64,000 nucleotides of DNA, from assembly GCF_020567425.1 (NCBI RefSeq), contig NZ_JAJCVJ010000003.1, forward strand, positions 248,001 through 312,000. Direction: 5' to 3'. This stretch comes from Salinirubrum litoreum. Lineage in GTDB: Archaea > Halobacteriota > Halobacteria > Halobacteriales > Haloferacaceae. Of the stretch, positions 7,886 to 26,600 are shown one piece after another. The stretch's first letter is position 1; every line of letters starts with the position of its first letter. A program made the translations under genes and the position numbers. Under the pieces are notes generated by a model. It was not told the DNA's origin and did not search any database. It was given only the letters and a program-made list of their open reading frames with translations.

Positions 7886-8611
7886 GTGTCAACGATCCTC
7901 CGAATCAAGTTCCAAACCGTGCCGTCCGGGATCATCGCCGGTCTCGAGTCCACCATCCCGGAAGTGAGAGAGATCAGCTACGAGAACATCTTCTACGCGA
8001 GTGACGGAGACTGGATCGAGTCGCTCACGGTCACTTCGCGAACGTCGTTCGATCCGGCGTCGGTGGTCGAGTCACTCTCGCGCGTAGAACTGTTCCATCA
8101 CCAGAGAACGGGAGTCGACTCCACCGACGGGACGACCCACCGTCTCACGATCGTCGCACACGAACCGTACCCGTTCCTGCTGGGGGTGATCCTGCGGGGG
8201 AGAGCGCTCCCGAACCGACTCGAACTCCGTGACGGGGTGCTGACTGGGGTGGTCACGGTCAAGGAGTGGGCCGACTTCCGGGCCCTCGCAGACACCATCG
8301 AAGAACAGTTCGGTCGGTTCGAACTGCTGAGCGTGAATCAGGCCGACACGATCGGTGCGCCGCTGGGGTCCGGGCAACTCAACCGGGTGCTCCGTGACGA
8401 ACTCACCGAAGAACAACTGACGGTCCTCCGGACTGCACACCGACTCGGGTACTTCGACGTCCCACGAGGTGCCTCTGCGGACGACATCGCATCTGAACTC
8501 GACATCGCACAGTCCACGCTGAGCGAGCGACTCCGACTCGCCGAAGGCCGACTGTTCGACCTGATGTTCTCTGCGGGGAGCGGCAGTTCTGCCGACGACG
8601 GCGAGGAGTGA
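7886..8611 (+). CDS. Bat-type HTH transcriptional regulator upstream of the peptide transporter
   Basis: A 241-residue regulator of the haloarchaeal Bat/HTH_10 kind. The N-terminal 150 residues form a sensor-like alpha/beta region. The C-terminus has the HTH_10 landmarks LTEEQLTVLRTAHRLGYFDVPR and then IASELDIAQSTLSERLRLAE. The start codon is GTG, about 34 bases after a TATA-like catatttaac. It sits immediately upstream of, and on the same strand as, the ABC importer at 8800-14792 and is its best candidate regulator. Confidence 0.87.
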   Translation: MSTILRIKFQTVPSGIIAGLESTIPEVREISYENIFYASDGDWIESLTVTSRTSFDPASVVESLSRVELFHHQRTGVDSTDGTTHRLTIVAHEPYPFLLGVILRGRALPNRLELRDGVLTGVVTVKEWADFRALADTIEEQFGRFELLSVNQADTIGAPLGSGQLNRVLRDELTEEQLTVLRTAHRLGYFDVPRGASADDIASELDIAQSTLSERLRLAEGRLFDLMFSAGSGSSADDGEE

Positions 8612-8799: not shown

Positions 8800-10770
8800 A
8801 TGTCGGATGACAACACGGTCGAGATCGAGACAGGGAAGAGTTCACGGAGGAACTTCCTCCGCATCGCGGGCGTCGCGGGGGCCGCCGGGCTTGCAGGCTG
8901 TGGTGGCAACAACGGCGGCGGTGGCGGCACCGGTGGCGGCGGTGGTGGCGGTGACGACGGTGGGGGTGGCGGCGGCGGTGGTGGTGGCGGCGGCGGCGGC
9001 CGGTCGATCGAGACGCGGTTCTGGGAAGAGTGGCCGGTCGAGACGAAAGGCGTCGACGTCAACGACGAGGCGATCCAGTTCGAGTACACCGCCGTCGAGG
9101 GCCAAGCAGTGCCCGAGGTCGACACCCACTTCGCGCAGGCAGAGACCCCGTGGATGCGGGAGTTCGCCCTACTCGTTCAGCAGTCACTGAACGACCTCGG
9201 CGTCCCGGTCAACCTCATCAACGTCCAGCCGAGCACGAGATACGGTGAGTTCTGGCGGGCCGACATCGGCCACCCGGTGCCGATCACGATGAACCTGCAC
9301 GGGCCGGACCCCCAGCGCGGACTCGACCCCAACCCGTTCCTCATGCGTGCACACCCGGAGACTGGTGGGAACTACTACAACTACAAGAACGACGAGATCA
9401 CCGAACTGCTGGACGAACAGGCGAGCACCATCGGTGACGTGGAGGCTCGCGCAGAGATCTGCCAAGAGGTCCAGCGCAAACTCAGTGAGGACGCCTACCT
9501 CATCGCAGCCAACTTCCCCGAAGTCATCACGGTGGCAAACACCGCAGACTGGGAGGGATACGTCCCGACTCCCGGGAACGGGACGACGCGAGACTCGTTC
9601 ATCTGGACGCAGGTGAACCTCCAACCCCGTGGCGACTCGACGACGTGGGTCAAAGGTGTCACGGCGGGGATGCAGGGGACGAACCTCCCGTTCTCCAGCG
9701 GTGGCCAGGAAGAGAAGCGACTCCTGAACGTCTACGACGGGCTGTTCGACGCCTCGCCGGAACTCGAGATCGTCCCGGCGCTGGCGACGAACGCAGACGT
9801 CGTCGACGACACGACGGTCGAGATGGACCTCCGCGAGGGCGTCGAGTGGCACGACGGCGAGTCGTTCGGTCCCGACGACGTGAAGTTCAGCGTCGAACTG
9901 TACAAGCAGAACAACGCGCCACAGCAGGGGGCGTTCGTCCGGACCATCGACGGCGTCGAGATTCTCTCGGAGTCCGGCGGCGGGCGCGTTAGGTTCACGT
10001 TAACAGAGCCTGACGCGGCGTTCCTCACCCAGCGGGTGGCCCGCAGTGCCATCATCCCGAAGCATCGCTGGGAGGACGTGGACAGCCCCGCAGAGTACAA
10101 CCCCGACAACCCGGTCGGGACCGGCCCGTTCTCGTTCGTCAACTGGGAGCAGGGCTCGGAGCTCAGACTCGAGAAACACGAGAACAACTGGATGTGGGAC
10201 GACGAGATCCGCGAGGAACTCCTCGGGGAGTACTTCGTCCCCGGCGACGGCATCGACGAGATGGTCCACGCCAACGTCGGCAACGTCTCGACGCTCATCG
10301 GCGCGATGCAGTCGGGCGACATCGACGCCATCGGGACGACCGTCTCGAACCAGCAGGCGGACCGTGCGGCCAACGCGAGCGGCGTCGAGAAACAGACCGC
10401 ACGCAACTACGTCCCCACGGACGTCCACCTGAGCCATCTCGTCCCGCTGTTCCGCGACAAGACGTTCCGCGTCGCGTTGAGCCACGCCTTCGACAAGGAG
10501 GGCTTCGTCGAGAACACCCTCGGCGGTCGGGGTGAGGCGATCCAGGGACAGAACCTGCTCACGCCACTGCTGACGCCGTTCTACGGCGAGACGGAGCCGT
10601 ACGCGTACGACGTCGACCAAGCACGCCAGATGCTCCAGCAGGCGGGCTACACGTACAACGGCGACGACATGCTGGTGTGGCCGGAGGGCGACGCCTGGAG
10701 CGCCTTCGAGGCACGTGTGGAGGACGGACACGCGACTCGCTCGGAACTCGACCAATCAGACTTCTCGTAA
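8800..10770 (+). CDS. peptide/oligopeptide-type ABC binding lipoprotein with apparently permuted domains
   Basis: A 656-residue family-5 solute-binding protein. It begins with a Tat signal (SRRNFLR) and lipobox LAGC, then a poly-Gly linker (about residues 28-67). The domain order is unusual. Residues about 95-260 resemble the part of DppA/OppA that normally comes last (SLNDLGVPVNLI, GGNYYNYKNDEITELL, WEGYVP). Residues about 290-470 resemble the normal N-terminal lobe (VPALATNADVVDD, LREGVEWHDGE, PVGTGPFSFVNW). The end (FRVALSHAFDKEGF ... QARQMLQQAGY) is the normal middle. It therefore reads as a circular permutation. It is the first gene of an operon with two permeases and a double ATPase. 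The substrate is probably a peptide or other large solute; family-5 proteins are broad. Confidence 0.88.
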   Translation: MSDDNTVEIETGKSSRRNFLRIAGVAGAAGLAGCGGNNGGGGGTGGGGGGGDDGGGGGGGGGGGGGGRSIETRFWEEWPVETKGVDVNDEAIQFEYTAVEGQAVPEVDTHFAQAETPWMREFALLVQQSLNDLGVPVNLINVQPSTRYGEFWRADIGHPVPITMNLHGPDPQRGLDPNPFLMRAHPETGGNYYNYKNDEITELLDEQASTIGDVEARAEICQEVQRKLSEDAYLIAANFPEVITVANTADWEGYVPTPGNGTTRDSFIWTQVNLQPRGDSTTWVKGVTAGMQGTNLPFSSGGQEEKRLLNVYDGLFDASPELEIVPALATNADVVDDTTVEMDLREGVEWHDGESFGPDDVKFSVELYKQNNAPQQGAFVRTIDGVEILSESGGGRVRFTLTEPDAAFLTQRVARSAIIPKHRWEDVDSPAEYNPDNPVGTGPFSFVNWEQGSELRLEKHENNWMWDDEIREELLGEYFVPGDGIDEMVHANVGNVSTLIGAMQSGDIDAIGTTVSNQQADRAANASGVEKQTARNYVPTDVHLSHLVPLFRDKTFRVALSHAFDKEGFVENTLGGRGEAIQGQNLLTPLLTPFYGETEPYAYDVDQARQMLQQAGYTYNGDDMLVWPEGDAWSAFEARVEDGHATRSELDQSDFS

Positions 10771-10786
10771 GGACCTCTCACCACTC

Positions 10787-11770
10787 ATGAGCTTTCGACG
10801 CTTCCTGATAAAACGGACCCTGATCGCGGCGGTACTGACGCTGATCGCCGTCAGCGTCATCTTCGTCACGCTCCGGATGTTACCCGCCGATCCGTTCAGC
10901 GGCCTCGTCGCGTCCGGGGCGCTCACACCCGAACAGGTCGAGCGCGTCCGGGCGATGTACGGGCTGGACGAACCGATCTACGTCCAGTACTTCAAGTACA
11001 TCCAGAACCTGTTCACCTTCCAGTTCGGCATCTCGCTCACCCAGCAACGGCCGGTCGGCGAGATCATCATCCCGGCGCTGATCAACACGCTCGTCCTGCT
11101 GTTGCCCGCACTCGTCGTGACTGCGATCCTCAGTTCGCTGGCCGGGATGTACGCCGGGTGGAACCGCGGGTCGTGGTTCGAGCAGTCGAGCATCGTCGTG
11201 ACCACGGTCTTCCGTGCGGTCCCCATCTTCGTGACGGGCATCTTCCTGCTCATCATCTTCTCGTACGGGTTGGGCTGGCTCCCGGCGTTCGGGATGCGCA
11301 GTCCGCTCGCGAACCCGGACGGCTACCTGGAGACGTACCTCTCGGTGGACTTCCTGAAACACTACATCCTCCCGTTCAGCGCGACGGTGTTGTTCTACAG
11401 CGGCGACTTCCTGATGCTCGCCCGCAACTCCGTCGTCGAACGGAAGGGGTCGGAGTTCCTCATGCTCCACCGTGCGAAGGGGCTGTCGGACATGGAGCAA
11501 CTCGGTCGGGCCGGGCGGAACTCGTTGCTGCCGCTCGTGACCTACTTCGCGCTCCGGACCGGCATGCTGTTTCAGGGCGTCATCACGCTGGAGGTCGTCT
11601 TCGCGTGGCCGGGTATCGGTCGCGCACTCGTCCAGTCGATCCTGAACCAGGACTACCCGACGGTCCAGGCGGCCGTGTTCATCATGGCGCTGGCGGTCAT
11701 CGTGATGAACCTCACCGCCGACGTGGCCTACGCGAAACTGGACCCGACCGTGGAGGCAGGTGACGTCTGA
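10787..11770 (+). CDS. dppB: ABC transporter permease, DppB type
   Basis: A 327-residue inner permease with six transmembrane helices and the binding-protein-dependent transport signature near its end (GVITLEVVFAWPGIGRALV). The N-terminus FRRFLIKRTLIAAVLTLIAV and the following LRMLPADPF are typical of DppB/OppB. It starts 16 bases after the binding-protein stop and its stop overlaps the next start by one base. It forms the membrane channel with the DppC partner. Confidence 0.92.
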   Translation: MSFRRFLIKRTLIAAVLTLIAVSVIFVTLRMLPADPFSGLVASGALTPEQVERVRAMYGLDEPIYVQYFKYIQNLFTFQFGISLTQQRPVGEIIIPALINTLVLLLPALVVTAILSSLAGMYAGWNRGSWFEQSSIVVTTVFRAVPIFVTGIFLLIIFSYGLGWLPAFGMRSPLANPDGYLETYLSVDFLKHYILPFSATVLFYSGDFLMLARNSVVERKGSEFLMLHRAKGLSDMEQLGRAGRNSLLPLVTYFALRTGMLFQGVITLEVVFAWPGIGRALVQSILNQDYPTVQAAVFIMALAVIVMNLTADVAYAKLDPTVEAGDV

Positions 11771-12690
11771 TGTCGGGGTACTCACTCGACGCCGACACCG
11801 CGAAAGAGCGGCTCCGCTCTGAGTTCGGTCGGGCCAGACGGGTCCTCGGTCACGTCCTGGAGGACAACGCGGCGAAGGTCGGTGTCGCGATCATCGTCAC
11901 GTTCGGCTTCCTCGGGCTCTTCGGACCGTACATCGCCCCGTACCACCCCATCGAGGACACGCTCCGACAGGGCGGCTCGATGATGCGCCTGCAGGACCCC
12001 GGCGGGAAGGCCCTGCTCGGGACGACCTCGTTCGGGAAGGACGTGCTCAGCCAGTTCCTCGCCGGCGCACGGCCGACGCTCATCGTCGGTCTGTTCGGCG
12101 GCGTCGGGACGGGCGTCCTGGGCTTCCTCGTCGGACTCACGAGCGGCTACTTCGGCGGGACCGTCGACGAGTTCCTGATGCGACTGACCGACCTGACGTT
12201 CGCGCTCCCGTTCTTACCGATGGCGCTGGTGATCCTCTCGTTCGTGACGCCGAGCGTCTGGCTGATCACCACCGTACTGGTCGTCTTCCTCTGGAAGATG
12301 CCGGCGCGGGTCATCCGCTCTGAGGTGATGACGGTCAAGGAACGGACGTTCGTGAAGTCCGCCCGAGCACGGGGTGCAGGCCACCTCCGGACGATGTTCC
12401 TGCACGTCGCGCCGAACGTGCTCGGGATCGGCTTCCTCTACACCGCCTACGCCGTCGGGTGGTCTATCGTCGCCGGGGCCTCACTCGCCTTCCTCGGCTT
12501 CGGCGACCCGACGACCACCTCCTGGGGTCGGATGCTCCAGCAGGTGTTCCGCTCGGGCGCGATCCGCGTCGCGTGGTGGTGGGTCCTGCCGCCCGCACTC
12601 GGTATCGGTGCCGTCACGACGGCCGTCTTCCTGGTCGGACGGGCGTTCGAGGAGATAGTCAACCCAGACCTACAGACGGAGCAAGAATGA
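11770..12690 (+). CDS. dppC: ABC transporter permease, DppC type
   Basis: A 306-residue permease with about six transmembrane segments. The periplasmic-side N-terminal loop ends in HPIEDTLRQGG and the region LLGTTSFGKDVLSQFLAGAR is the DppC hallmark. The cytoplasmic coupling loop is seen as SARARGAGHLRTMFLHVAPN. The start overlaps the dppB stop by one base and the stop overlaps the ATPase start by four, so the complex is probably made stoichiometrically. Confidence 0.92.
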   Translation: MSGYSLDADTAKERLRSEFGRARRVLGHVLEDNAAKVGVAIIVTFGFLGLFGPYIAPYHPIEDTLRQGGSMMRLQDPGGKALLGTTSFGKDVLSQFLAGARPTLIVGLFGGVGTGVLGFLVGLTSGYFGGTVDEFLMRLTDLTFALPFLPMALVILSFVTPSVWLITTVLVVFLWKMPARVIRSEVMTVKERTFVKSARARGAGHLRTMFLHVAPNVLGIGFLYTAYAVGWSIVAGASLAFLGFGDPTTTSWGRMLQQVFRSGAIRVAWWWVLPPALGIGAVTTAVFLVGRAFEEIVNPDLQTEQE

Positions 12691-14792
12691 GTCTACTCGA
12701 AGTCGACGACGTGAAGATCACGTATCGGTTGCCACACAGTCAAGTCCACGCCGTCAACAACGTCTCCTTCTCGATCGACGAGGGAGACAACTACGGACTC
12801 GTCGGCGAGTCAGGCTGTGGCAAGTCGACGCTCGCCAAGTCGGTTCTCGGGCTCCTCGACAGCAACGGCGAGATCCAGTCGGGGAGCATCCGGTTCAACG
12901 GCCGTGAACTCACCGACCTCTCCGAGCGTGACTGGCAGTCTGTCCGCTGGGAGGAGATATCGTACATCCCACAGAGTGCGATGGACTCGCTCGACCCGGT
13001 GATGTCCGTCGGTGCGCAGATCCGACAGGCGATCCGCAAACACCGGGACGTCTCGAAACGAACGGCGAACGAGCGCGTCGACGAGGTGTTCGAGATGGTC
13101 GGGCTCGATCCGGCACGAACCGGCGACTACCCGCACCAGTTCTCTGGCGGCATGCGCCAGCGCGTCACGATCGCGATGGCGCTCGCGTTAGACCCCGATC
13201 TCATCATCGCCGACGAACCGACGACGGGGCTGGACGTGATCGTCCAGGACAAGATCATCGACAAGCTGATGGAGATTCAAGCGGAGACGGGGAGTTCGCT
13301 CCTGTTGATCACCCACGACGTGGGCGTCGTCGCGGAGAGCTGTGAGGAGGTGTCGGTCCTGTACGGCGGGAAGGTGATGGAGCAGGGCGAGACGAATCAG
13401 GTGTTCAGAGCGCCGACGAACCCCTACTCGATGGGGCTGAAGAACGCGTTCCCGGAGGTCGACGAGTTCGACGAGCAGGCCATCTCGATTCCGGGATCGC
13501 TCCCGAGCCTCATGCACGAACCGGACGGCTGTGTGTTCCGTAACCGCTGTCCGTTCGCGACAGAGGAGTGCGAGCAGGGACACCCACCACTCGTCGAGAC
13601 AGACGGCCAATCATCGGCCTGTTACTACACCGACCGGGCCGACGAGATGCGAGACGCCGCGGCCGACCCCGAGACCTGGGGGATCGAAGCCCGCGACGAA
13701 CGTGACCGGTCGGGTGAGACTGGCGACGTCATCCTCGAGACGCAAGGCCTGGAGAAGTGGTTCAAGCAGTCACAGGGGATTCTGGACGACCTTCGCGGCC
13801 GCGAGCCGAACTACGTCAAGGCCGTCAACGACGTCGATCTCACCGTCCACGAGGGCGAGATCGTCGGCGTCGCCGGCGAGTCGGGGTGTGGGAAGTCGAC
13901 ACTCGCGGAGGTGATCGCCGCCCTGCAAGAACGGACGGGCGGGGAGATCTTCGTCGACGACACACCGGTCGACGAGTTGCTCGACCGCAGTACCAAAGAG
14001 TTCCGCTCGCGGGTGCAGTTCATCTTCCAGGACCCGTTCGACTCGCTCAACCCCCGTCAGCGGGTTCGAGCGGCCGTCTCCGAGCCACTGAAGATTCAGG
14101 GACTCGACAGCGAGACGATCGACCGCCGCGTCCGGCAGACCGTCGCGGACGTCGGTCTCGAACCGGTCGAGAAGTACCTCGACAAGCTTCCGGCTCAGCT
14201 CTCGGGGGGAGAACGACAGCGTGTCGCCATCGCGCAGGCGCTCGTCCTCGAACCACAGCTACTCATCTGTGACGAACCGGCGTCGATGCTCGACGTCTCG
14301 CTGAAGGCCAACATCCTCAACATCCTGCGGGAGATGGCCGACGAGCGCGAGATCGGCATCGTCTACATCTCCCACGACCTCGCGAGCCTCACCCAGATCG
14401 CCGACCGTCTCGCGGTGATGTACCTCGGGCGGATCGCCGAACTCGGTGACACCGAGGACGTGGTCAGCACCCCGAAGCATCCCTACACCGCGTCGTTACT
14501 GGCGGCCTCACCGAAGACCGACCCGGACGTGGACCGCCAGCGAGTCCTGCTCCCCGGCGAGCCACCGGACCCGGTCGACCTGCCGAACGGGTGTAACTTC
14601 GCCCCCCGGTGTCCGAAGGCGGGGCCGGAGTGTCGCGAGGAGGAGCCCGAGCGTGGTGCCTTCGCGGACGACGACCACGAGGCTGCCTGCTACTTCCCCG
14701 TCGAAGACATCGAGACCGAACTGCTGGAACGGTACGCAGAGGAACACGAAGAAGACGTCTCGGAGGCCATCGGCGACGAGGTGACCCTGTAG
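12687..14792 (+). CDS. fused DppD-DppF double ABC ATPase
   Basis: A 701-residue protein carrying two complete nucleotide-binding domains that are separate DppD and DppF proteins in most bacteria. NBD1 has Walker [10 protein letters not shown] (about residues 40-48), signature FSGGMRQR and Walker [12 protein letters not shown]2 has GESGCGKST near residue 397, LSGGERQR and LLICDEPA. Each is followed by the oligopeptide-transporter C-terminal domain with its cysteines ([10 protein letters not shown] and [11 protein letters not shown]). ATG at 12687 overlaps the dppC stop by four bases. It powers the importer encoded upstream. Confidence 0.93.
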
Positions 14793-14942: not shown

Positions 14943-17090
14943 TCAGCGACGTGTTCGGACGAGCGCGTCGACGGCCACCGGTCCGTCCTCGGTGACGACG
15001 ACCGGATTCAGATCGAGTTCGGCGACGGCGTCGACCGACGCCGCCAGATCGCCGACACTCACGAGGAGGTCGACGACCGCCGACACGGACAGCGGTTCGC
15101 CAGCGCGCCGGTCGGTCAACAGGGCTGCGAGTGCCGTCTGCTCGACTGCGCGGCGGGCGTCCGCCCGCGAGAACGGCGGGACGAGCGTCGTGGTCTCGTC
15201 TACCGCCTCGACGAGCACCCCGCCCGGACCGACGGTGACGAGCGAGTCGAACACGTCGCCGGGTGCCACTCCGAGGATGGCCTCGACACCGTCTGTGACC
15301 ATCGGTTGGACGAGGACACCGGCCACGTCAGACTCGGCGGTGTGGTCCAACGCCGCATTTAGCACCTCGTGGTACGCGTCCCGGACCGCAGTGGGCGAGT
15401 CGAGCCCCAGTTTCACCCCGCCGACGTCGGTCCGGTGTGGGAGCGCCGGCGAGTCGATCTTGAGCACGACGGGGTAGCCGACAGCGTCGGCGGCCGCGAC
15501 GGCTTCCTCGGCGTCGGTCGCGAGTCGCGTCTGCACGACGGGGATATCGAAGGCGTCGAGGAGCGGTTCCGTCTCGGCCCACGTCAACACTCGTCCTGCC
15601 GGGAGGTCGACCGAGGGTGTTTCGAGCGACGCGTTCGACTCGACTCTGGAGGGCTGACCGACGAGGCGGTCACGATCCTCGACGGCCATCGCCGTCGATG
15701 CGACAGCGTCCAGGCACCGCCCCGGGTCCTCGTACACCGGAACCGACTTCCTGAGGTCGGCGTACGGTGGCGTCGTCGTCGGCTCGTCCGGTTCCTTTCG
15801 GCCGGTCCAGAGGACGTAGACCGGGTCGTCGGCCGCCGCGACGATTGACTCGAGATCGGCGGCGATGGTCTCGGCGCGTTCGTCGGTTCCGGGGAGGCCG
15901 ATGGCGAAGACGTAGGCGTCGAACGCGTCGTCGGACAGGACGGCGTCGGCGATCTCGGGGAGCACCTCGGCACCGTACCCGCGAATGTCCGCAGGGTTCG
16001 TGAACCCGCCGTAGGTCAGGAGTTCCTCGACGTCGAGCAGTCTCCGTTCGGTTTCGCCGTCGATGTCGGGGAGCACGAGATCTCGCTCGGCGGCCATGTC
16101 CGCGAGGAGACTCGCGAGACCGCCGCTTGTCGAGGCGATACAGACCCGGTTCCCGTCGGGTGGGTCGTACGCGGTGTGGGCGCTCGCCCGCGAGAGTAAA
16201 TCTGGGATGTCCGGCACCCGCTGGACACCGGTCTGGTCGAACGCCGCCCGCCAGGCGTCGTCGCTCCCGGTGAGCGACCCGGTGTGTGACAGCGTGGCCG
16301 CCTCGGCGAGGTCCGACCGCCCGACCTTGACCGTCAGAACCGGCGTCCCCTCGCGGGTCGCCCGTTCTGCGACGCGCATGAACCGGTCCGGGTCGTCGAT
16401 GCCCTCGATGTACGTACAGATCACGTCGACCGTGTCGCGCTCTGCGAGATACGCGACGTAGTCGGTCAGTGTCAGGTCGGCCTCGTTGCCGGTCGAGACG
16501 ATGTGGCTGAAGTGGAGGTCCCTGTCCGCCGCCCGCTCGAAGAAGGTCGTGAACGCCAGCGCCCCGGACTGGCTCACGAGACCGATCCGTCCGGGCGCCG
16601 GTTCGCGCGAACACGTCGAGGTGAGCGTCGCCCCCCGGGCGGCCATCACCCCGATGCAGTTCGGCCCGACGACGCGGATCCCGGTCTCGGCGGCCGCGTC
16701 GGCGAGCCGCGACTCCAGTTCGACGCCGTCGTCGTCTGCCTCGGAGAAGCCCGCTGTGAGAACGAGCGCAGTCGGGACGCCCCGGTCGCCCGCCGCCGAA
16801 ACCACGTCGACGACGTACTCCCGGGGCACACTCACGACGGCCACGTCGACGGTCTCGGGGACGTCGTCGATGTCGTCGTAACACGCTCGACCCCAGACCT
16901 CGTCTCGACCGGGGTTGACGGGGTAGAGCGAACCGTCGAAGCCGTAGCCGAGGAGGTTCTCCACGAGGTTCCCGGAGTAAAACGAGTCGGGACTGGCACC
17001 GACGACGGCCACCGAGTCCGGGTCGAACAGCGGGTCGAGTGCCGGCACTGCCGGTGCGGCGTCCGGAGTCACCGGGTCGCTATCTGACAT
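14943..17090 (-). CDS. ADP-forming acyl-CoA synthetase, fused alpha and beta subunits
   Basis: A 715-residue NDP-forming acyl-CoA synthetase of the acetate-CoA ligase (ADP-forming) superfamily. The alpha part has a CoA-binding domain (SVAVVGASPDSF, VGPNCIGVMA) and succinyl-CoA ligase-like domains with the phosphohistidine region LSHTGSLTGSDDAW. The beta part, from about residue 480, is an ATP-grasp domain (VGYPVVLKIDSPALPHRTDVGG, GVLVQPMV). Haloarchaea use such enzymes to make ATP from acyl-CoA or to activate organic acids. Beside CitE-, PrpF- and PEP-mutase-type genes, a branched or dicarboxylic acid is a reasonable but unproven substrate. A TATA-like box lies near 17151-17162. Confidence 0.9.
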   Translation of the reverse strand: MSDSDPVTPDAAPAVPALDPLFDPDSVAVVGASPDSFYSGNLVENLLGYGFDGSLYPVNPGRDEVWGRACYDDIDDVPETVDVAVVSVPREYVVDVVSAAGDRGVPTALVLTAGFSEADDDGVELESRLADAAAETGIRVVGPNCIGVMAARGATLTSTCSREPAPGRIGLVSQSGALAFTTFFERAADRDLHFSHIVSTGNEADLTLTDYVAYLAERDTVDVICTYIEGIDDPDRFMRVAERATREGTPVLTVKVGRSDLAEAATLSHTGSLTGSDDAWRAAFDQTGVQRVPDIPDLLSRASAHTAYDPPDGNRVCIASTSGGLASLLADMAAERDLVLPDIDGETERRLLDVEELLTYGGFTNPADIRGYGAEVLPEIADAVLSDDAFDAYVFAIGLPGTDERAETIAADLESIVAAADDPVYVLWTGRKEPDEPTTTPPYADLRKSVPVYEDPGRCLDAVASTAMAVEDRDRLVGQPSRVESNASLETPSVDLPAGRVLTWAETEPLLDAFDIPVVQTRLATDAEEAVAAADAVGYPVVLKIDSPALPHRTDVGGVKLGLDSPTAVRDAYHEVLNAALDHTAESDVAGVLVQPMVTDGVEAILGVAPGDVFDSLVTVGPGGVLVEAVDETTTLVPPFSRADARRAVEQTALAALLTDRRAGEPLSVSAVVDLLVSVGDLAASVDAVAELDLNPVVVTEDGPVAVDALVRTRR

Positions 17091-17224
17091 GACGTGTGAT
17101 TCCCGACGACGGCGCCTGAACCTACTCCCGAAGGGCGACTATCTGTATCGTCATTTAAGTACTCGACTCCGAGAACGGTGAACGATCTGCCGGCTTTAGT
17201 AGGGGCTGTTCCCTGTGAGAGTGC

Positions 17225-18031
17225 ATGACACGAGAGATCACAGCCGGGATCCACTGGATCTACGAAGCCGGGCCGGATCGAACAGCCTCGTGGGACGTAG
17301 CCGACCGCGATCCGGGGTGGTACGAGGCGGGACGGGAGGCGTACGTCCCCCAGTGTGCGTACCTCGTCGACGGCGGGGAAGAGACGCTCCTGTTCGATAC
17401 ACTCTCGCCGGCGAGCACCGACGAGATACTCGCCGCGATCGACGACCTCGTCGGCGACCGGGGTCTCGACTACCTCGTCGTCTCACACCCGGACGTCCCC
17501 CACGCCGGGAACACAGTCGCCATCCTCGAGGAGCATCCCGAGACGACGCTCGTCGCTCCCGGCTACGGCAACGACCACGAACTGTATCGCCTCGACGACG
17601 GGATTCACGTCACCGAGGGCGACCGGATCGACCTCGGTGATCGGACGGTCGAGTTCCACGAGGCGACCTTCCTCGACGCGCCAGTCTCGCTGTGGATGAC
17701 GGAACGGGAGACAGAGACGCTATTTCCGGTCGACTGGATGGGGTTCATCCACCTGGACGAGGAGCGACTGGCCTTCGTCGACGAACTCGACGGGGAGTTC
17801 GACCCGAGCAGACTCGTCGAGTTCCACGGTCGCGTCCTGTTCTGGTACCAGTACGTCGACGTCGAGACGACGAACGCCGAGATCGACGCACTCGTCGAGA
17901 AGTTCGACCCGGAGATCATCGCGCCGGCACACGGACTCGTCATCCGCGAGGACGCGACCGACTACATGGAACTGATGAAAGACGTGACGCGCACGATCGA
18001 CGACCAGGGACGCATCGGGACGCTCGGGTGA
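17225..18031 (+). CDS. metallo-beta-lactamase-fold protein with HxDxPH motif (paralog 1)
   Basis: A 268-residue MBL-fold protein. The usual HxHxDH zinc motif is replaced by HPDVPH at about residue 92, and the later regions read LFPVDWMGF and PAHGLV. This layout is closest to the flavodiiron oxygen-reductase MBL branch (HxExDH), but with Pro where an Asp ligand should be and no flavodoxin domain. The next gene but one is a paralog with the same substitution. A TATA-like box (ctttagta) about 28 bases before the ATG suggests a leaderless mRNA. It may be an oxygen- or redox-related hydrolase; the substrate is unknown. Confidence 0.83.
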   Translation: MTREITAGIHWIYEAGPDRTASWDVADRDPGWYEAGREAYVPQCAYLVDGGEETLLFDTLSPASTDEILAAIDDLVGDRGLDYLVVSHPDVPHAGNTVAILEEHPETTLVAPGYGNDHELYRLDDGIHVTEGDRIDLGDRTVEFHEATFLDAPVSLWMTERETETLFPVDWMGFIHLDEERLAFVDELDGEFDPSRLVEFHGRVLFWYQYVDVETTNAEIDALVEKFDPEIIAPAHGLVIREDATDYMELMKDVTRTIDDQGRIGTLG

Positions 18032-18035
18032 TCAG

Positions 18036-18104
18036 ATGACGGGACACACCACCACAGAGGGAGGCGAATCGACGGCACACACCACCACGGAGGGACGCGT
18101 ATGA
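18036..18104 (+). CDS. 22-residue ORF with duplicated HTTTEG motif
   Basis: A very short frame between two MBL genes. It encodes two copies of an (A/G)HTTTEG unit separated by GESTA and begins 4 bases after the first MBL stop. Its TGA overlaps the ATG of the second MBL gene (ATGA). The same arrangement couples known genes elsewhere in this window. It may be a translated coupling peptide, or simply a duplicated spacer; two histidines in repeated context could bind metal. Confidence 0.35.
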   Translation: MTGHTTTEGGESTAHTTTEGRV

Positions 18105-18841
18105 CGGTCCAGATCGCGCCGGGCGTCGAGTGGCTCAACCAGTGTTACGAACACGAGGGGAGTCACGAGCACGTCTCGCTGTACCTCCTGCACGCGCCGG
18201 AGGGGACCGTCCTCGTCGACTCGGGGTCGTTCTACCACCGCGAGGAGATCACCGCCGCCGTCGACGAGGCGACCGGCGGCGAGGGCCCGGACGCCATCGT
18301 CCTCTCACACTCGGATTACCCCCACGCGGCGAACGTCTCGTCGCTGGGCGGTGACACGGAGGGCGTCGAACTCGTCGCGTCGTCGGCCTCGCCGGCCCAG
18401 CAGGGACTCCCGAACGCGCGCAAGTGCGACATCGGCGGCACACTGACGATACAGGGACGGGAGTTCAGCTTCATCGACCCACCGCTCGCCGACCGCTCGC
18501 ACACGACCTGGATCTACGACCACGGCGACGGGGTGCTGTTCACTGCCGACGGCTTCGGCAACTACCACGACCCCGGCCAGTGTGACTACCGCTCTGGCGA
18601 CTTCCCGGAGTCCACACCTGCCGAGCAGATCTACGAGTACCACCGCGACAACCTCGTGTGGCTCCGCTACGTCGCCCCGGAGAAGGTCGAGCGTACCCTC
18701 GAAGACATCTTCACGTCGTACGACGTCCGGGCCGTCGCACCGATCCACGGCAACCCGATCGAGGGCGAGGACCTCGACACCTACCGCGGCAGACTCAGCG
18801 AGGCGATGGAACGGATCGCGTCCGAGTACTCTGTCGGGTGA
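18101..18841 (+). CDS. metallo-beta-lactamase-fold protein with HxDxPH motif (paralog 2)
   Basis: A 246-residue MBL-fold protein related to the one upstream. The metal motif is HSDYPH at about residue 69, again with Pro in place of the Asp ligand; later motifs are LFTADGFGNYHD and APIHGNP. Together with the first copy and the 22-residue ORF it forms a three-frame run on one strand. The C-terminus carries a helical region (PEKVERTLEDIFTSYDV). A physiological pair acting as a heterodimer is possible. Confidence 0.85.
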   Translation: MTVQIAPGVEWLNQCYEHEGSHEHVSLYLLHAPEGTVLVDSGSFYHREEITAAVDEATGGEGPDAIVLSHSDYPHAANVSSLGGDTEGVELVASSASPAQQGLPNARKCDIGGTLTIQGREFSFIDPPLADRSHTTWIYDHGDGVLFTADGFGNYHDPGQCDYRSGDFPESTPAEQIYEYHRDNLVWLRYVAPEKVERTLEDIFTSYDVRAVAPIHGNPIEGEDLDTYRGRLSEAMERIASEYSVG

Positions 18842-18872
18842 GCCCCCCGGAGCGTGCGAGGCGTCGACGGGG

Positions 18873-19727
18873 CTACCGGACTCCGGCGACTTCGGCCCGG
18901 CGCACGACGACCCGTGCGCGCTCGACCAACGGCGGGTCGATCATCTGCCCGTCGACGGTGAACACCCCATCGTCCGCCTCGCTGGCTCGCGACTGGCCGG
19001 CGAGCACTCGCTCGGCCCACTCGATCTCCTCGTCGGTGGGCGTGAACGCCTCGTTGATGATCGGGACCTGTGCGGGGTGAATGGCGAGTTTCCCGTCGAA
19101 GCCGAACTCGAGGACCGTGCGAGTCTGCTCGCGGAGGCCCTCGCTGTCCTCGATGTCGGTGTGAACGGTGTCGAAGGCGTCGACGCGGGCCGCGCCGGCG
19201 GCCGCGACGACGCGCTGGCGGGCGTACAGCGACTCGGTCTTCGCCGCTGTGACGGTCGCGCCGACGTCTGCGGTGTAGTCCTGATCGCCGTAGGCGACCC
19301 CGACGACGCCGGACGCCTCGGCGATCTCTTCGACGGCGAGCAGGCCCGCCGCAGTCTCGATCAGCGGAATCACGTCGACGGAACTCGCGCCGGCGGCTTT
19401 GAGGTCGGCTGTCAACCGCTCTACCTGATCTGGACGGTCTACCTTCGGGAGGACCACGCTGTCGGGCAGTCGCTCGGCGTCGCGGACGACCGCCTCGACG
19501 TCGCTGGGTCCCTCGCGGTCGTAGGAGGTGATCCGGACGCTGATCGAGGGGTCGGGATCGTCGAGTCCGTCGAGGGTCTCCCGGACGGTCCGGCGGGCAG
19601 TCGCTCGTGCGGCCGGTGCGACCGCGTCTTCGAGGTCGAATATCACCGCGTCGGCTCCCGAGTCGACCGCTTTCTGGTGCATCTCGCGCTGGTCGCCGGG
19701 ACAGTAGAGCAGCGAACGAGCGATCAT
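18873..19727 (-). CDS. CitE/HpcH-HpaI family lyase (citramalyl- or malyl-CoA lyase like)
   Basis: A 284-residue TIM-barrel enzyme of the CitE/malyl-CoA lyase family. Visible landmarks are RSLLYCPGD at the N-terminus, the metal-site region ADAVIFDLEDAVAP, IPLIETAAGLL, and YGDQDYTADVG, where most members have a Glu-Asp or Asp-Leu pair. CKLAIHP-type substrate loop appears as GKLAIHPAQV. Members cleave beta-hydroxyacyl-CoA such as malyl-, citramalyl- or beta-methylmalyl-CoA using Mg2+. It faces the MBL genes convergently. A TTTTTG-type box near 19753-19761 is about 30 bases before the ATG. Confidence 0.9.
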   Translation of the reverse strand: MIARSLLYCPGDQREMHQKAVDSGADAVIFDLEDAVAPAARATARRTVRETLDGLDDPDPSISVRITSYDREGPSDVEAVVRDAERLPDSVVLPKVDRPDQVERLTADLKAAGASSVDVIPLIETAAGLLAVEEIAEASGVVGVAYGDQDYTADVGATVTAAKTESLYARQRVVAAAGAARVDAFDTVHTDIEDSEGLREQTRTVLEFGFDGKLAIHPAQVPIINEAFTPTDEEIEWAERVLAGQSRASEADDGVFTVDGQMIDPPLVERARVVVRRAEVAGVR

Positions 19728-19803
19728 ATCCCAGTATCGACCGTGGGGGACAAAAACGCTGAGGCGGCCGAACGCTCATGACGGTTCGGTCGAACGCGGG
19801 GCT

Positions 19804-20565
19804 ATGGACGAGCAGACTGACCGCAAACGGTCCGCCGCGGCACGCTTCGGGGAGCACGCCGGGGCGTATCTGGACAGCAGTGTCCACCGGGCGGGCGACG
19901 ATCTCGATCAACTCACCGACTGGGTCGGCCCGGCCGACCGTGCGCTGGACGTCGCAACCGGTGCCGGCCACACCGCCGGTGCCCTGCTCGATGCGGGTGT
20001 AGACAGCGTGGTCGCCGCCGACGCCGCACCCGAGATGGTCGCGACGACGAGGGAGGCGTACCCCGGCGTCGAGGGGGTCGTCGGTGACGCCGAACGGCTC
20101 CCGTTCGCGTCGGACTCGTTCGACGCCGTGACCTGTCGGATCGCCGCGCACCACTTTCCCGACCCCGCCGCGTTCGTCGCGGAGGTCGCTCGGGTGCTCG
20201 AACCCGGCGGTGTCTTCGCCTTCGAGGACAACGTCGCGCCGGACGACGACACACTCGACGAGTTTCTCAACACCGTCGAGCGCACTCGGGACCCGACCCA
20301 CGTCCGCTCACACCGCGTCGGTGACTGGCACGCGTGGCTCCGAGCCGAGGGCTTGACCGTCGAACGGTCGCGGGTCGTCACGAAGACGCTCGACTACGAC
20401 GAGTGGGTCGGGAACGTCGACGCACCAGCCGAGCGTCGCCGGCGACTTCGCGCCGTGTTCACAGACCGACCGCCCGGTGCGACCGAGTTGTTCGAGATCG
20501 TCGAGTCGGACGGCGAGGTGGACTCGTTCGCCAACCTGAAACTACTGCTTCGCGCGACACTGTGA
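19804..20565 (+). CDS. class I SAM-dependent methyltransferase
   Basis: A 253-residue UbiE/type-11 methyltransferase. Motif I is DVATGAGHTAGALL, the motif II region VAADAAPEMV, motif III GDAERLPFASDSFDAVTCRIAAHHFPD, and then LEPGGVFAFEDN. The protein is acidic and soluble with no added domain. It is divergent from the CitE-type gene and convergent with the orphan ATPase, so neither neighbour indicates its substrate. Confidence 0.9.
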   Translation: MDEQTDRKRSAAARFGEHAGAYLDSSVHRAGDDLDQLTDWVGPADRALDVATGAGHTAGALLDAGVDSVVAADAAPEMVATTREAYPGVEGVVGDAERLPFASDSFDAVTCRIAAHHFPDPAAFVAEVARVLEPGGVFAFEDNVAPDDDTLDEFLNTVERTRDPTHVRSHRVGDWHAWLRAEGLTVERSRVVTKTLDYDEWVGNVDAPAERRRRLRAVFTDRPPGATELFEIVESDGEVDSFANLKLLLRATL

Positions 20566-20639
20566 GCACAATCTCGGCGGCCTGAACGCGGTCCTGTCGG
20601 TCGCCCGCCTCACTGCGTGGCCGTCTCTTCGGAGCCGGG

Positions 20640-20682
20640 TCAGTCGGTGTCGGGTCAGTCGGTGTCGGGTCAGTCGGTGTCG
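20640..20682. repeat. 15-base tandem repeat spanning the stop codon of the orphan double ATPase
   Basis: The unit tcagtcggtgtcggg occurs twice in full and a third time in part. On the minus strand the third copy encodes the last residues and TGA of the ATPase. The two further copies repeat the same Pro-Asp-Thr-Asp-stop reading in the same frame, so readthrough meets two more stops. It looks like slippage or duplication at the gene end. Confidence 0.8.
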
Positions 20683-22829
20683 ATCCGCTCTTCGATACGC
20701 GCCGACTCGTCGTCGGGCGTGACTCCGGCCGGGTGGAAACACGCCGCGCTGTGCTCTTCGGCCGTCCAGCTATCGAGTTCGGGTTCCGTCTCGAGACAGC
20801 GATCGGTCGCCTTCGGACACCGCGAGGCGAACCGACAGCCAGCAGAGATATCCACGGGGTCTGCGGGTTCTCCGTCCAGCATCACGCGGTCTCGACTGCC
20901 CCGTGGGTCAGTCTCGGGAACTGCGTCGAGGAGTGCCTCGGTGTAGGGGTGTTTCGGATCACCGACGATCTGGGCGGTCCTGCCGCGCTCGACGAAGCGA
21001 CCGAGGTACATGATCGCCAGCCTGTCGGCGATTCGAGTGAGGCTGGCGAGGTCGTGTGAGATGTACAGGACGCCGATTCCTTCGGTGTTCGCGAGCGAGC
21101 GGAGGAGGTTGAGCACCACGGCCTTGAGTGAGACATCGAGCATCGACGCCGGTTCGTCACAGATGAGAAAGTCGGGGTCGATGACGAGTGCCCGCGCGAT
21201 GGCGACACGTTGACGCTGACCGCCCGAGAGCTCGTTCGGATACTTGTCCAGATAGCGCTCGACGGGCGCCATCCCGACCTGTTCGAGCGTCTCGTAGACG
21301 GCCGTGTCACGCTCGTCGAGCCGGTAGTTGTGGATCGTCAGTGGCTCTCTGACCAACTGTTCGACGGTCATTCGCGGGTTCAACGAGTCGTAGGCGTTCT
21401 GAAAGACGATCTGGAGTTTCTGCCGAAGCGACTGGAGGTTCCCGTCCTGGTAGTACTCGTGTGAGCGCCCGTCGAACGTGAACCCGCCGCGAGTCGGCTC
21501 CTCCAACAGCGCGAGGGTCTGCCCGAGCGTCGTCTTGCCACAACCGGACTCGCCGACGACGCCGAGAATCTCACCGCGCGAGACCGACAGCGAGACGCCG
21601 TCGACAGCACGGACGTGTGACTCACCTTCGTTCAGTACCTCGGTGAGGATCTCGCCGCGCTGTTCGTACCACCGGCGGAGGCTGTTCGAGATGCCGGTCA
21701 CGTTCGGGGAGATACCACCGACTGGAAGCCGGCCCAGTAGCGACTCCGACCGCTCGTACCACGTACACAACTCGTCGACCTCAAGCAGCACCTCGCCCGA
21801 GTCGGAACGCGACCCCTCCGTGGACCAGCCCCACGTCGACGCGTCTTCTGCGTCCCGGCGCATCCACGCACCGTGTTCGGCGTTGTGACAGGCGACGCTG
21901 TGATTCCGGTACGGAAGTGCTTCGACCTCCGGCTCTCTCGTCGCACACGCTTCGCTCGCGAACGGACAGCGCGGTTCGAAGACACAGCCAGTCGGCTCCG
22001 CTTCGAGGTTCGGCGGTTCACCCGGGACCGAGACGAGATCCTCGTCCTCGTCTTCCAGCGCCGGGAACGCGTTCTTCAGCCCCATCGTGTACGGGTTCGC
22101 CGGGTTGAGCAGGACGTTCTCGACTCGCCCCTGTTCCATCACCGTCCCGCCGTACATCACCGACATCTCGTCGCACGTCTCGGCGATGACACTCATGTCG
22201 TGGGTGATCAGCAGCAGCGAACTGTCCGTCTCCTCTTGAATCTGGAGGATGTTGTCGATGATCTTGTCCTGGACGATCACGTCCAGCCCCGTCGTCGGTT
22301 CGTCGGCGACGATCAGTTTCGGTTCGAGCGCGAGTGCCATCGCGATGACGACACGCTGGCGCATCCCGGCAGAGAACTGGTGGGGGTACTCGTCCGTCCG
22401 TTCGGCGTCGAGGCCGACCGCCTCGAACAGTTCACGGGCGCGTCGTCTGGCGTTGGCGTCGGAGAGTTCACGGTGGGTCTGGATCGCCTGGACGATCTGT
22501 CCACCGACGGTCATCACCGGGTCGAGGGCGTCGATGGCCGTCTGTGGGATGAACGCGATCTCCTCCCAGAGCATGTCCTGTCGCTGTGAGGGGGTCAAAG
22601 CGAGCAGGTCCCGTCCCTCGAACTCGACGCTCCCGGACTCGATCACCGCGTGGTCGGGCAGGAGTCCGAGGATCGCCTTCGCGGTCGTCGACTTGCCCGA
22701 GGCGGACTCACCCGAGAGGCCGTAGTTGACGCCGTCGTCGATACTGAACGAGACGCCGTTCACGCTGTAGAGCGGGCCGTCCCGGGTCTCGTATCGCACC
22801 GCGAGATCTTCGACGTCGAGGAGCGTCAT
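20670..22829 (-). CDS. fused DppD-DppF double ABC ATPase without adjacent permeases
   Basis: A 719-residue double ATPase. NBD1 has an atypical Walker [10 protein letters not shown], signature FSAGMRQR and Walker [12 protein letters not shown]2 has [17 protein letters not shown] and LICDEPA. Each NBD is followed by the oligopeptide-transporter cysteine module ([11 protein letters not shown] and [11 protein letters not shown]). The linker between them has an extra charged helix (about residues 370-410). No binding protein or permease lies beside it. It might energise the system at 8.8-14.8 kb or one outside the window. Start MTLLDVED was chosen; the longer in-frame reading upstream is not coding-like. 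Confidence 0.9.
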
Positions 22830-22985
22830 CCGCCGATCCCGCCGAGGAGTGCCCGGGGAGAGGTCACACCCCGGTAACGACCATCCAGACTCACAGAGGG
22901 ACCGCCCCTGCGCGTCGTTCGAGCCATCTCGACACTGCATAACACGCAACATGTTAAGAACCCTCGCATCACACCACCCCATGAC

Positions 22986-24203
22986 ATGACCGAGTCACTC
23001 GTCCGTCGACTCGGTCGGTTCGACGCCGTGCTGCTCACTGCCGGGTTGTGGTTTCTCGGCAAGTTCGTCCGGTTCGCCTTTCCGCCACTGTTCGAGCAGT
23101 TGGCGGTGGTCTACGACGTCTCGACTGCGATACTGGGTGGCGCGTTCAGTGCCCTGTTGCTGGTCTACGCCGCCCTGCAGTTCCCCTCGGGGCTCCTCTC
23201 GGATCGCCTGAGTCCCGTGGTCGTCATCGCTGTGGGTTCGGCGCTGTCGATCGGTGCGGCACTCGCCCTGAGCCTCGACGGGCCGTTCGTCGTTCTTGTC
23301 GGTGCGATGGTGGTGATCGGAGCGGGGACCGGGCCGCTCAAGACGGTCGGCATGCAGATCCTCTCTCGAACCTACCCGAAGCAGACCGGTCGGGTGTTCG
23401 GTGTGTTCGACACCTTCGGCACGCTGGGCGGCGCCGTGGCACCGGCCGCAGTCGTGCTGTTCGCCGGGTCGCCTGCGGTGTTCGGCGCGGGATGGCGGAC
23501 GACGTTCCTCCTCGCGGGGCTGACCGGCATCGGCGTGACAACGGCCTTCGTCCTCCGGGTTCCCGGTCGGATGCCAGACGAGAGCGAGGAGTCCCCGGGC
23601 GAGGACGGTACTGTCCCGATTCGTGAGTACGGAACGTTGTTCCGGGAGTGGCGGTTCTCCGTGTTCGTCCTCGTCACGAGTCTGTTCTCGTTCGCGTTCA
23701 ACGCCGCGCTCGCGTTTCTCCCGCTGTACTTCACGCGAGAAGCCGGACTCGGACCGACCACCGCGAACCTGCTGTACAGTTCACTGTTCGTGGTGAGCTT
23801 CGTGCAGTTGCTCACGGGCGAACTGAGTGACCGAACCGGGACACTCCTGGTCATCGCACTCACGGTCGGTCTCGCGGCGGCCGGACTGGGGTCGGTCGTC
23901 CTGTTGACCGGCGTCGCTGGACCGCTCGCGCTCGGGGTGGCGGTCGTCTGTTTCGGCCTCGGTGCCCACGGCTATCGACCGGTCCGGGGGGCGTACCTGA
24001 TGTCGGTCATCCCCGCGTCGGTCTCCGGGGGGAGCCTCGGTGCGGTCCGGACGATTCAGATGCTCGCCGGCGCCTCCGCGCCCGCACTCGTGGGCGTCCT
24101 CTCCGAGACGACCGGCCTCCAGCCGGCGTTCACCCTTCTCACTGCGGCGTTGGTGCTCGCGACGGTCCTCTCGGCGCTCCTCTGGCTCGCCGACGGTGAC
24201 TGA
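22986..24203 (+). CDS. MFS transporter
   Basis: A 405-residue major facilitator with 12 predicted transmembrane helices. The cytoplasmic loop 2-3 shows PSGLLSDRLSP, a relaxed form of the family GxxxDR motif, and the matching loop in the second half reads TGELSDRTG. The central hydrophilic loop is near residues 195-220. A TATA-like catgttaag about 28 bases upstream suggests a leaderless start. It sits immediately before the PEP-mutase-type gene and could import an organic acid used by it; the direction and the substrate are inferred. Confidence 0.9.
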   Translation: MTESLVRRLGRFDAVLLTAGLWFLGKFVRFAFPPLFEQLAVVYDVSTAILGGAFSALLLVYAALQFPSGLLSDRLSPVVVIAVGSALSIGAALALSLDGPFVVLVGAMVVIGAGTGPLKTVGMQILSRTYPKQTGRVFGVFDTFGTLGGAVAPAAVVLFAGSPAVFGAGWRTTFLLAGLTGIGVTTAFVLRVPGRMPDESEESPGEDGTVPIREYGTLFREWRFSVFVLVTSLFSFAFNAALAFLPLYFTREAGLGPTTANLLYSSLFVVSFVQLLTGELSDRTGTLLVIALTVGLAAAGLGSVVLLTGVAGPLALGVAVVCFGLGAHGYRPVRGAYLMSVIPASVSGGSLGAVRTIQMLAGASAPALVGVLSETTGLQPAFTLLTAALVLATVLSALLWLADGD

Positions 24204-24263
24204 CGCGTCGGCGTGTGGTGACAGCCGGTCGATGTTTTTTGTACTAGGTCGTGTACGGCCAGT

Positions 24264-25163
24264 ATGGACACTCGTCAACAGTTGGCAAGGATGGTCGAAG
24301 ACGACGGAATAACCGTCGTTCCGGGGGTCTACGACGGAATCAGTGCGCGCCTCGTCGAACAACAGGGCTTCTCCTCGGGATTTCTCTCCGGTGCCGGCGT
24401 CTCGAACAGCCGGCTGGCACAACCGGACGTCGGCTTCCTCACGCTGCCCGACGTCGCAGACCAGTCGAGAGAGATCACAGACGCGGTCGACATCCCGGTC
24501 TGGGTCGACGCCGACACCGGCTACGGGAACGCTGTCAGTGTGCACCGGACCGTCCGGCGTCTGGCGGACGCGGGTGCCGCAGCGGTCATGATCGAAGACC
24601 AGGAGTGGCCGAAGCGCTGCGGCCACATGGCGGGGAAGTCCGTCGTTTCGTTCGAGGAGGCAGTCTCGAAGATCGAGGCCGCAGCAGACGCTCGTGACGA
24701 GCACGCACCCGAGATGCTCCTGAAGGCGCGGACCGACGCCACCGAACCGCAGGGACTCGACGAGGCGATCGAGCGGTTGAACGCGTTCGCCGACGCCGGT
24801 GCTGACGTCGTCTTCGCGGACGCGCTCCGGTCCGAGGAGGCGATCGCTCGGGTCGCCGCAGGGGTGGACGCGCCCCTCTCGGTGAACATGGGGTTCGGCG
24901 TCCGGAGTCGGCCGACGACACCGCTGATCCCCGCTCCGCGACTCGAGGAGATGGGCGTCGACGTCGTCATCTACCCACGACTCATCACCGCCGCGGCGAC
25001 CGCCGGCATGAAACACGCTCTGACAGAACTGGAGACGGCCGTCGAGACGCGCGAGGCGTACGAGGCACCCGACGCCGTCGTCGACTGGGCGTACTACACC
25101 GACCTGATCGGCAAGCCGGCGGTCGACGACCTCGAAGGGCGGTTCGCACCCGACGATGGGTGA
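24264..25163 (+). CDS. isocitrate lyase/PEP mutase family enzyme (oxoacid-forming C-C lyase)
   Basis: A 299-residue TIM barrel of the PEP mutase/isocitrate lyase superfamily. The substrate and metal residues are visible as SGAGVSNS, WVDADTGYGN, IEDQEWPKRCGHM and LKARTDA. The Cys in KRCGH is the lyase nucleophile or base, so a C-C lyase such as 2-methylisocitrate lyase, dimethylmalate lyase or oxaloacetate decarboxylase is likelier than a phosphonate mutase. It is followed on the same strand by prpF- and tartrate-dehydrogenase-type genes. A TTTTTTG box about 26 bases upstream supports the ATG. Confidence 0.9.
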   Translation: MDTRQQLARMVEDDGITVVPGVYDGISARLVEQQGFSSGFLSGAGVSNSRLAQPDVGFLTLPDVADQSREITDAVDIPVWVDADTGYGNAVSVHRTVRRLADAGAAAVMIEDQEWPKRCGHMAGKSVVSFEEAVSKIEAAADARDEHAPEMLLKARTDATEPQGLDEAIERLNAFADAGADVVFADALRSEEAIARVAAGVDAPLSVNMGFGVRSRPTTPLIPAPRLEEMGVDVVIYPRLITAAATAGMKHALTELETAVETREAYEAPDAVVDWAYYTDLIGKPAVDDLEGRFAPDDG

Positions 25164-25303
25164 ACCTCTCGGGAGGTGCTCATCTTGGACGGGAGAGCGA
25201 TCGAACTGACGACCTCGGACGAGACAGCGGTCGAACAGGCTGACGAGCCAACGAGGTGTGTGGAGGCACAACGCCTACCACGACCGGGCGTGAGCCTCCC
25301 GGT

Positions 25304-26455: not shown

Positions 26456-26600
26456 AGTCGGGTCCTCGAATCCGGGTTAGTGCTGGTGTCGGCCGCCGCT
26501 CCTCCGAGTAGTTGCGGTCTCGTCAGGACTCGTCACGACTCGCCGCGATTCTGTCTCACGAGACGAAGGTTCAAACGGGGCCCCTTCGAACCGGTCGGCC

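Follow-up and report, generated by a model that had tools for sequence, protein, structure and literature searches.

The reading frame at positions 8800 to 10770 (+) of the window, by which the whole analysed stretch of 64,000 nucleotides is meant, encodes what we hold, with a probability of about 93%, to be a functional, membrane-anchored and circularly permuted family-5 binding protein that very probably supplies the Dpp-type importer whose genes follow directly after it. Proteins of family 5 rank among the most common binding proteins in prokaryotes. Judged by its sequence, the window protein is homologous to them and is a circularly permuted variant rather than an ordinary member. A sequence-only reading of the stretch had already described a circularly permuted family-5 lipoprotein, and two-part profiles, a doubled profile, structure matches of both halves, and 40 orthologues agree with that description.

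Gene and protein architecture

The gene is a single reading frame of 656 amino acids that starts with ATG and has no internal stops. The N-terminus carries a twin-arginine signal with a lipobox (RRNFLRIAGVAGAAGLAGC), after which a Gly/Asp-rich stretch extends to residue 67. The Tat-type lipoprotein signal peptide (RR...LAGC) covers residues 1-34 (8800..8901, +) and was recognized from the sequence together with a Pfam TAT_signal match that is weak and under the curated cut-off. The Gly/Asp-rich tether occupies residues 35-67 (8902..9000, +), and similar tethers occur on many unrelated lipoproteins of the genome. The poly-Gly stretch, earlier suggested as a possible new tether to the lipid anchor, is therefore an ordinary linker, and it was rejected as a special mark of the permutation, as the signal-plus-linker stretch matches many of these unrelated lipoproteins.

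Residues ~92-276 (9073..9627, +) form the front piece, which was assigned by profiles and structure matches to the old C-terminal part of the family-5 fold and contains the rest of lobe 2 as well as the last strand of lobe 1. A seam at residues ~277-281 (9628..9642, +), placed by profile mapping, joins the old C and N termini. It is followed by the back piece, residues ~282-628 (9643..10683, +), which by profiles and structure match is the old N-terminal part with the whole of lobe 1 and the beginning of lobe 2. Subfamily comparison identified residues 629-656 (10684..10767, +) as a new, conserved C-terminal tail. The protein had been read as ending just after QARQMLQQAGY, but the chain continues for 39 residues beyond AGY, and the tail is kept across the subfamily. 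SBP_bac_5 (PF00496), scoring 183.9 bits against a curated cut-off of 32.4, is the only Pfam family in the protein besides the signal-peptide match.

Rotated order of the segments

The SBP_bac_5 match covers residues 323-625 and runs from profile position 1 to 286 of 368, so that the end of the protein has no counterpart to the C-terminal part of the profile. The C-terminal half of lobe 2 and the final strand of lobe 1 are nevertheless present in the same chain, as seen with profiles and with the structure match of the front piece. For the two-part profiles, 15 ordinary haloarchaeal family-5 proteins were aligned and the alignment was split after the AGY helix into an N-part and a C-part. The N match precedes the C match in ordinary family-5 proteins, whereas the order is reversed in the window protein, with the N-part at residues 311-625 (iE 3e-56) and the C-part at residues 121-268 (iE 1e-8), residues 114-268 corresponding to profile positions 318-468, all in a numbering that is 8 aa longer from an upstream start. 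The matches cross in relatives of the window protein as well. A phmmer search against the PDB gave the same crossed order for 5isu, where query residues 321-618 correspond to chain 55-337 and query residues 120-244 to chain 354-472. The window protein does not follow the normal N-to-C segment order of family-5 proteins, and the crossed profile and phmmer matches bear out the earlier observation that the segments closing an ordinary DppA come first and the N-terminal lobe after them. Against a doubled ordinary profile, the protein gave one continuous match to positions 318-800 of 968 with 220 bits, which is one full turn of 484 positions, while the single profile needs two matches. Such an unbroken one-turn match is the signature of circular permutation.

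The front piece has diverged, scoring 25-32 bits with the C profile of canonical haloarchaeal proteins, and the front 200 residues might for this reason be a domain of unrelated descent, joined to a family-5 protein whose own C-terminal part was lost. However, the front piece scored 31.6 bits against the C-part profile, where the best of 2000 shuffles reached 7.9, and -2.5 bits against the N-part profile. A C profile made from non-halophiles alone also matched the window protein at residues 112-260 with 36.4 bits, more conserved permuted relatives reached 50-120 bits at the same place, and the structure matches fell in the C-terminal part of family-5 proteins. A fusion with an unrelated domain is, in our view, extremely improbable.

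Orthologues and gene neighbourhood

A search for the same order in other haloarchaea, as had been recommended, recovered full-length orthologues at 40 loci in named haloarchaea with 43-88% identity, all of which keep the permuted order. The dN/dS was 0.06-0.14 in the front and 0.11-0.23 in the back, and both halves are under strong purifying selection. An assembly or frame error joining two genes, which had been named beforehand as a case against the permutation, has nothing in its favor beyond the unusual segment order itself. The same order stands in one stop-free open frame at the 40 independent loci and in a single open frame in more than 150 listed junction matches, and selection acts on both halves. 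As an assembly error cannot recur across dozens of independent genomes, this explanation is ruled out for practical purposes.

Upstream of the gene lies an HTH_10/BAT-type regulator (7886..8611, +), identified by Pfam and by the flanks of orthologues, beside which it is conserved in 36 of 40 loci. Downstream, profile matches and ortholog flanks identified a DppB-like permease (10787..11770, +), a DppC-like permease (11770..12690, +), and a fused DppD-DppF-like ATPase (12687..14792, +). DppB and DppC homologues are located downstream of the orthologue in 40 of 40 loci and a DppDF match occurs in the flank of 36, the flank sequences of the other four ending before it. With its twin-arginine signal and lipobox, followed by the DppB, DppC, and DppDF genes, the window protein is predicted to be exported and to be associated with a DppBC-type importer, and this gene arrangement is conserved in the orthologues. 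A second fused DppDF-type ATPase gene is located at 20670-22982 (-) of the window, with no permease among the ORFs listed beside it and no SBP_bac_5 gene nearby in a genome search.

Structure models and the position of the cut

The AlphaFold model of residues 68-656, built with 38 sequences, was middling with a pLDDT of 69.6 and a pTM of 0.65. Model residues ~277-629 aligned with chain ~1-360 of solved family-5 proteins, and the best structure match of the back half was 1xoc_A with a Z of 18.2 over 326 residues at an rmsd of 5.4. The front piece alone gave a poor model (pLDDT 51.4), for which 49 of the 50 best rows were full-length binding proteins, nearly all of family 5. A match of residues 95-260 to the N-terminal lobe would have spoken against the permutation; instead, residues 92-243 sit at chain ~270-490, with Z values of 7.0 for 5isu and 6.3 for 1dpp_A (272-480). 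As the Z values of the front piece (5.8-7.0) are low and its model is too weak to stand alone, these matches served as support for the sequence evidence. Among the structures listed, no solved chain spans the junction, and each best stretch covers one side of it.

Lobe 1 of ordinary family-5 proteins is built from both chain ends. Profile mapping places the new ends at DppA mature residues ~343-352 and shows the old ends to be joined by ~5 residues (277-281). Lobe 2 of MppA comprises residues 288-506, and the hinges lie at 286-287 and 507-508 (PMC6022919). Set against these limits, the mapping locates the cut in the middle of lobe 2, which corrects the earlier statement that the joint falls exactly at a known domain boundary. 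We infer that lobe 1 becomes continuous and lobe 2 is split by the permutation, and from the MppA domain limits the hinge crossings would stay two. Lobe 2 would be assembled from the two end portions of the new chain, and the lipid anchor would therefore hold lobe 2 instead of lobe 1, to which it is attached in the ordinary order.

As the new termini split lobe 2 and a long flexible tether would permit exchange, the front piece could also complete lobe 2 of a neighbouring molecule and so link molecules at the cell surface into domain-swapped dimers or chains. The middling single-chain model of the whole protein and the low pLDDT of the front piece can likewise be cited in favor of this. On the other side, recent permutants of another archaeal family, described below, keep 420 of the 517 residues of an unpermuted relative, rotated and with almost no extra linker, which fits closure within one chain, and the seam in the window protein is only ~5 residues long. 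Exchange between molecules is considered unlikely, and closure of the lobes within a single chain is preferred.

Distribution in haloarchaea and bacteria

A junction profile of 251 positions was searched in 391 haloarchaeal genomes, 369 of which gave matches at E <= 1e-10, a score that ordinary proteins may reach via the C half alone. All of the ~155 matches listed at E <= 1e-63 are in a single open frame and extend over almost the full length of the junction model, and in a second junction search every match listed with E <= 1e-30 also spans the junction. The best junction match was at E <= 1e-30 in about 285 of the 391 genomes, which puts the share of genomes with a permuted protein at roughly three quarters. 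The genome of the window contains 16 SBP_bac_5 genes, three of which are permuted (the window gene, C3:204322, and C2:398784).

Permuted relatives were also identified on alphaproteobacterial plasmids of Nitratireductor, Maritalea, Neorhizobium, Microvirga, Roseomonas, and Ketogulonicigenium, the bacterial members having been drawn from plasmids only. Permease and ATPase genes adjoin these alphaproteobacterial genes wherever annotated. The Nitratireductor protein is 38% identical to a Halalkalicoccus jeotgali protein over 98% of its length, and this likeness suggests gene transfer between haloarchaea and alphaproteobacteria.

Independent origins of the permutation

When the sequences were rotated and placed in a tree, the permuted proteins of haloarchaea and of alphaproteobacteria grouped in one clade (SH-aLRT 90-95). 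Three proteins (L139, L140, and L141) from a different archaeal family within the same phylum are cut in the same loop and were placed among ordinary proteins. L139 shares 81% identity over profile columns with the ordinary L174 of the same genus, and their full-length rotated alignment, in which the 420 of 517 residues are kept, leaves the signal peptide in front. That all proteins cut in this loop share a single origin was rejected in a tree with close unpermuted relatives (AU p 5e-74), whereas an earlier tree without these relatives did not reject it (p 0.74). Haloarchaeal L044 (also L179) and L048 (also L144) are permuted elsewhere, around DppA mature residue 449, and this second cut site also maps inside lobe 2. 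L048 gave one match of 498 bits to the doubled profile, and both L044 and L048 are about 60% identical to the ordinary L004/L047. Because a single origin is rejected and a separate cut lies around DppA residue 449, the sequences indicate at least three independent permutations, namely in the haloarchaeal/alphaproteobacterial clade, more recently in the archaeal family of L139, and in haloarchaea at the second site. The sequence-only reading, sound on the permutation itself, was too narrow in extent, since the protein belongs to a large family with several origins.

The most likely route of permutation is an in-frame tandem duplication, after which the leading N part and the trailing C part were lost. 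An in-frame tandem family-5 fusion of the order N-C-N-C was found in a genome of the same phylum (L142:1810-4887, +), encoding 1026 aa with one signal peptide, and by its sequence it has the form to be expected of a duplication intermediate. It resembles such an intermediate in its two family-5 units, but both units keep the ordinary order, and the fusion and the window protein are not closely related. No leftover duplicate copies were found beside the recent permutants in the flanks examined, and the duplication route is therefore kept as a proposal.

Several origins, two cut sites, a tandem-duplicate form, and an 81%-identical pair differing in little but chain order together provide a natural experiment on permutation and its cost or gain. 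It is a rather doubtful idea that permutation in family 5 is not only recurrent but also selected, with the independent events all putting the new ends in lobe 2 and the tether holding that lobe. If true, a lobe-2 tether would alter opening, docking to DppB/DppC, or assembly on an archaeal surface that lacks a true periplasm.

Proposed function and ligand

The front and back pieces would fold into a normal two-lobed Venus flytrap. From homology and operon context, the solute would most likely be captured by the usual lobe closure and handed to DppBC, with the fused DppDF ATPase driving uptake, and the window protein is the predicted binding protein of the adjacent importer. In DppA, Arg383 and Asp436 hold the dipeptide ends, with R383 at the peptide carboxylate (PMC12136057). 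By profile mapping R383 corresponds to Q113 in the window protein, which argues against plain dipeptides as ligand, and D436 falls in a gap. The protein scored 49.4 bits with the DppA equivalog NF043070, below the NCBIfam cut-off of 1005.

Genes for carboxylic acids occur near the transporter at 14946-27659 of the window, encoding a succinyl-CoA-ligase-like protein, a CitE-like lyase, PrpF, and an isocitrate/isopropylmalate-type dehydrogenase. At L069, L073, L076, and L088, CitE-like genes of the HpcH/HpaI type are inserted between the binding-protein gene and DppB, and the same operon insert holds a family III CoA-transferase at L069 (Pfam) and at L076 (by eye). On account of these neighbouring genes, a carboxylic acid is a possible candidate ligand, proposed with low confidence.

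Comparison with known binding proteins

The window protein is homologous over its whole length to the canonical family-5 or cluster C proteins (DppA, OppA, MppA, AppA, and NikA; SBP_bac_5) and shares with them the lobes, the motifs, and the neighbouring DppBCDF-type transporter genes. Unlike them, it is cut in lobe 2 and has the old ends joined in lobe 1, its anchor would have moved to lobe 2, and DppA R383 is not kept.

In Treponema pallidum, a lipid-anchored solute-binding protein with a naturally occurring circular permutation has been described as TpMglB-2/Tp0684 or ‘Cluster Bc’, for which glucose binding and the accompanying conformational change and closure were shown experimentally, and whose authors raised the possibility that its permuted topology is adapted to tethering (PMC4990184). 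Both proteins are lipid-anchored and permuted, the window protein as judged from its sequence. TpMglB-2 differs in belonging to cluster B (sugar), in its other cut, and in adding a fourth hinge crossing, whereas the window protein is of family 5, to which nearly all structures listed for its halves belong. The permuted family-5 proteins would be the cluster C counterpart of TpMglB-2. Lipid anchoring is not supported as a necessary cause; the alphaproteobacterial permuted members inspected by eye have signal peptides without a clear lipobox, and tethering therefore cannot be the sole cause of permutation.

The literature searched, mostly without subscription papers, contained no description of a permuted family-5 protein, in line with the earlier statement that none was known, and no permuted member was present among the solved structures listed. 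Given the scope of this literature, the novelty of these proteins is likely rather than proven. That the rearrangement is common throughout haloarchaea, and that it arose several times independently, shows the observation itself to be real. Permuted proteins are currently annotated plainly as ‘ABC transporter substrate-binding protein’, and domain models that assume linear order silently drop their front third.

Divergent permuted proteins

A divergent permuted subfamily comprises L145, L146, L143, and L011, the last with 22% identity to the window protein; in some members, a long insert separates the C part from the N part. A further permuted family-5 protein, L138 (G563, minus strand, ~733-2496), may by its sequence represent another origin of the permutation. 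It ends with PGFG, a hydrophobic stretch, and RRRR, an end that resembles a PGF-CTERM surface anchor, so that this protein may be anchored by its C-terminus rather than its N-terminus.
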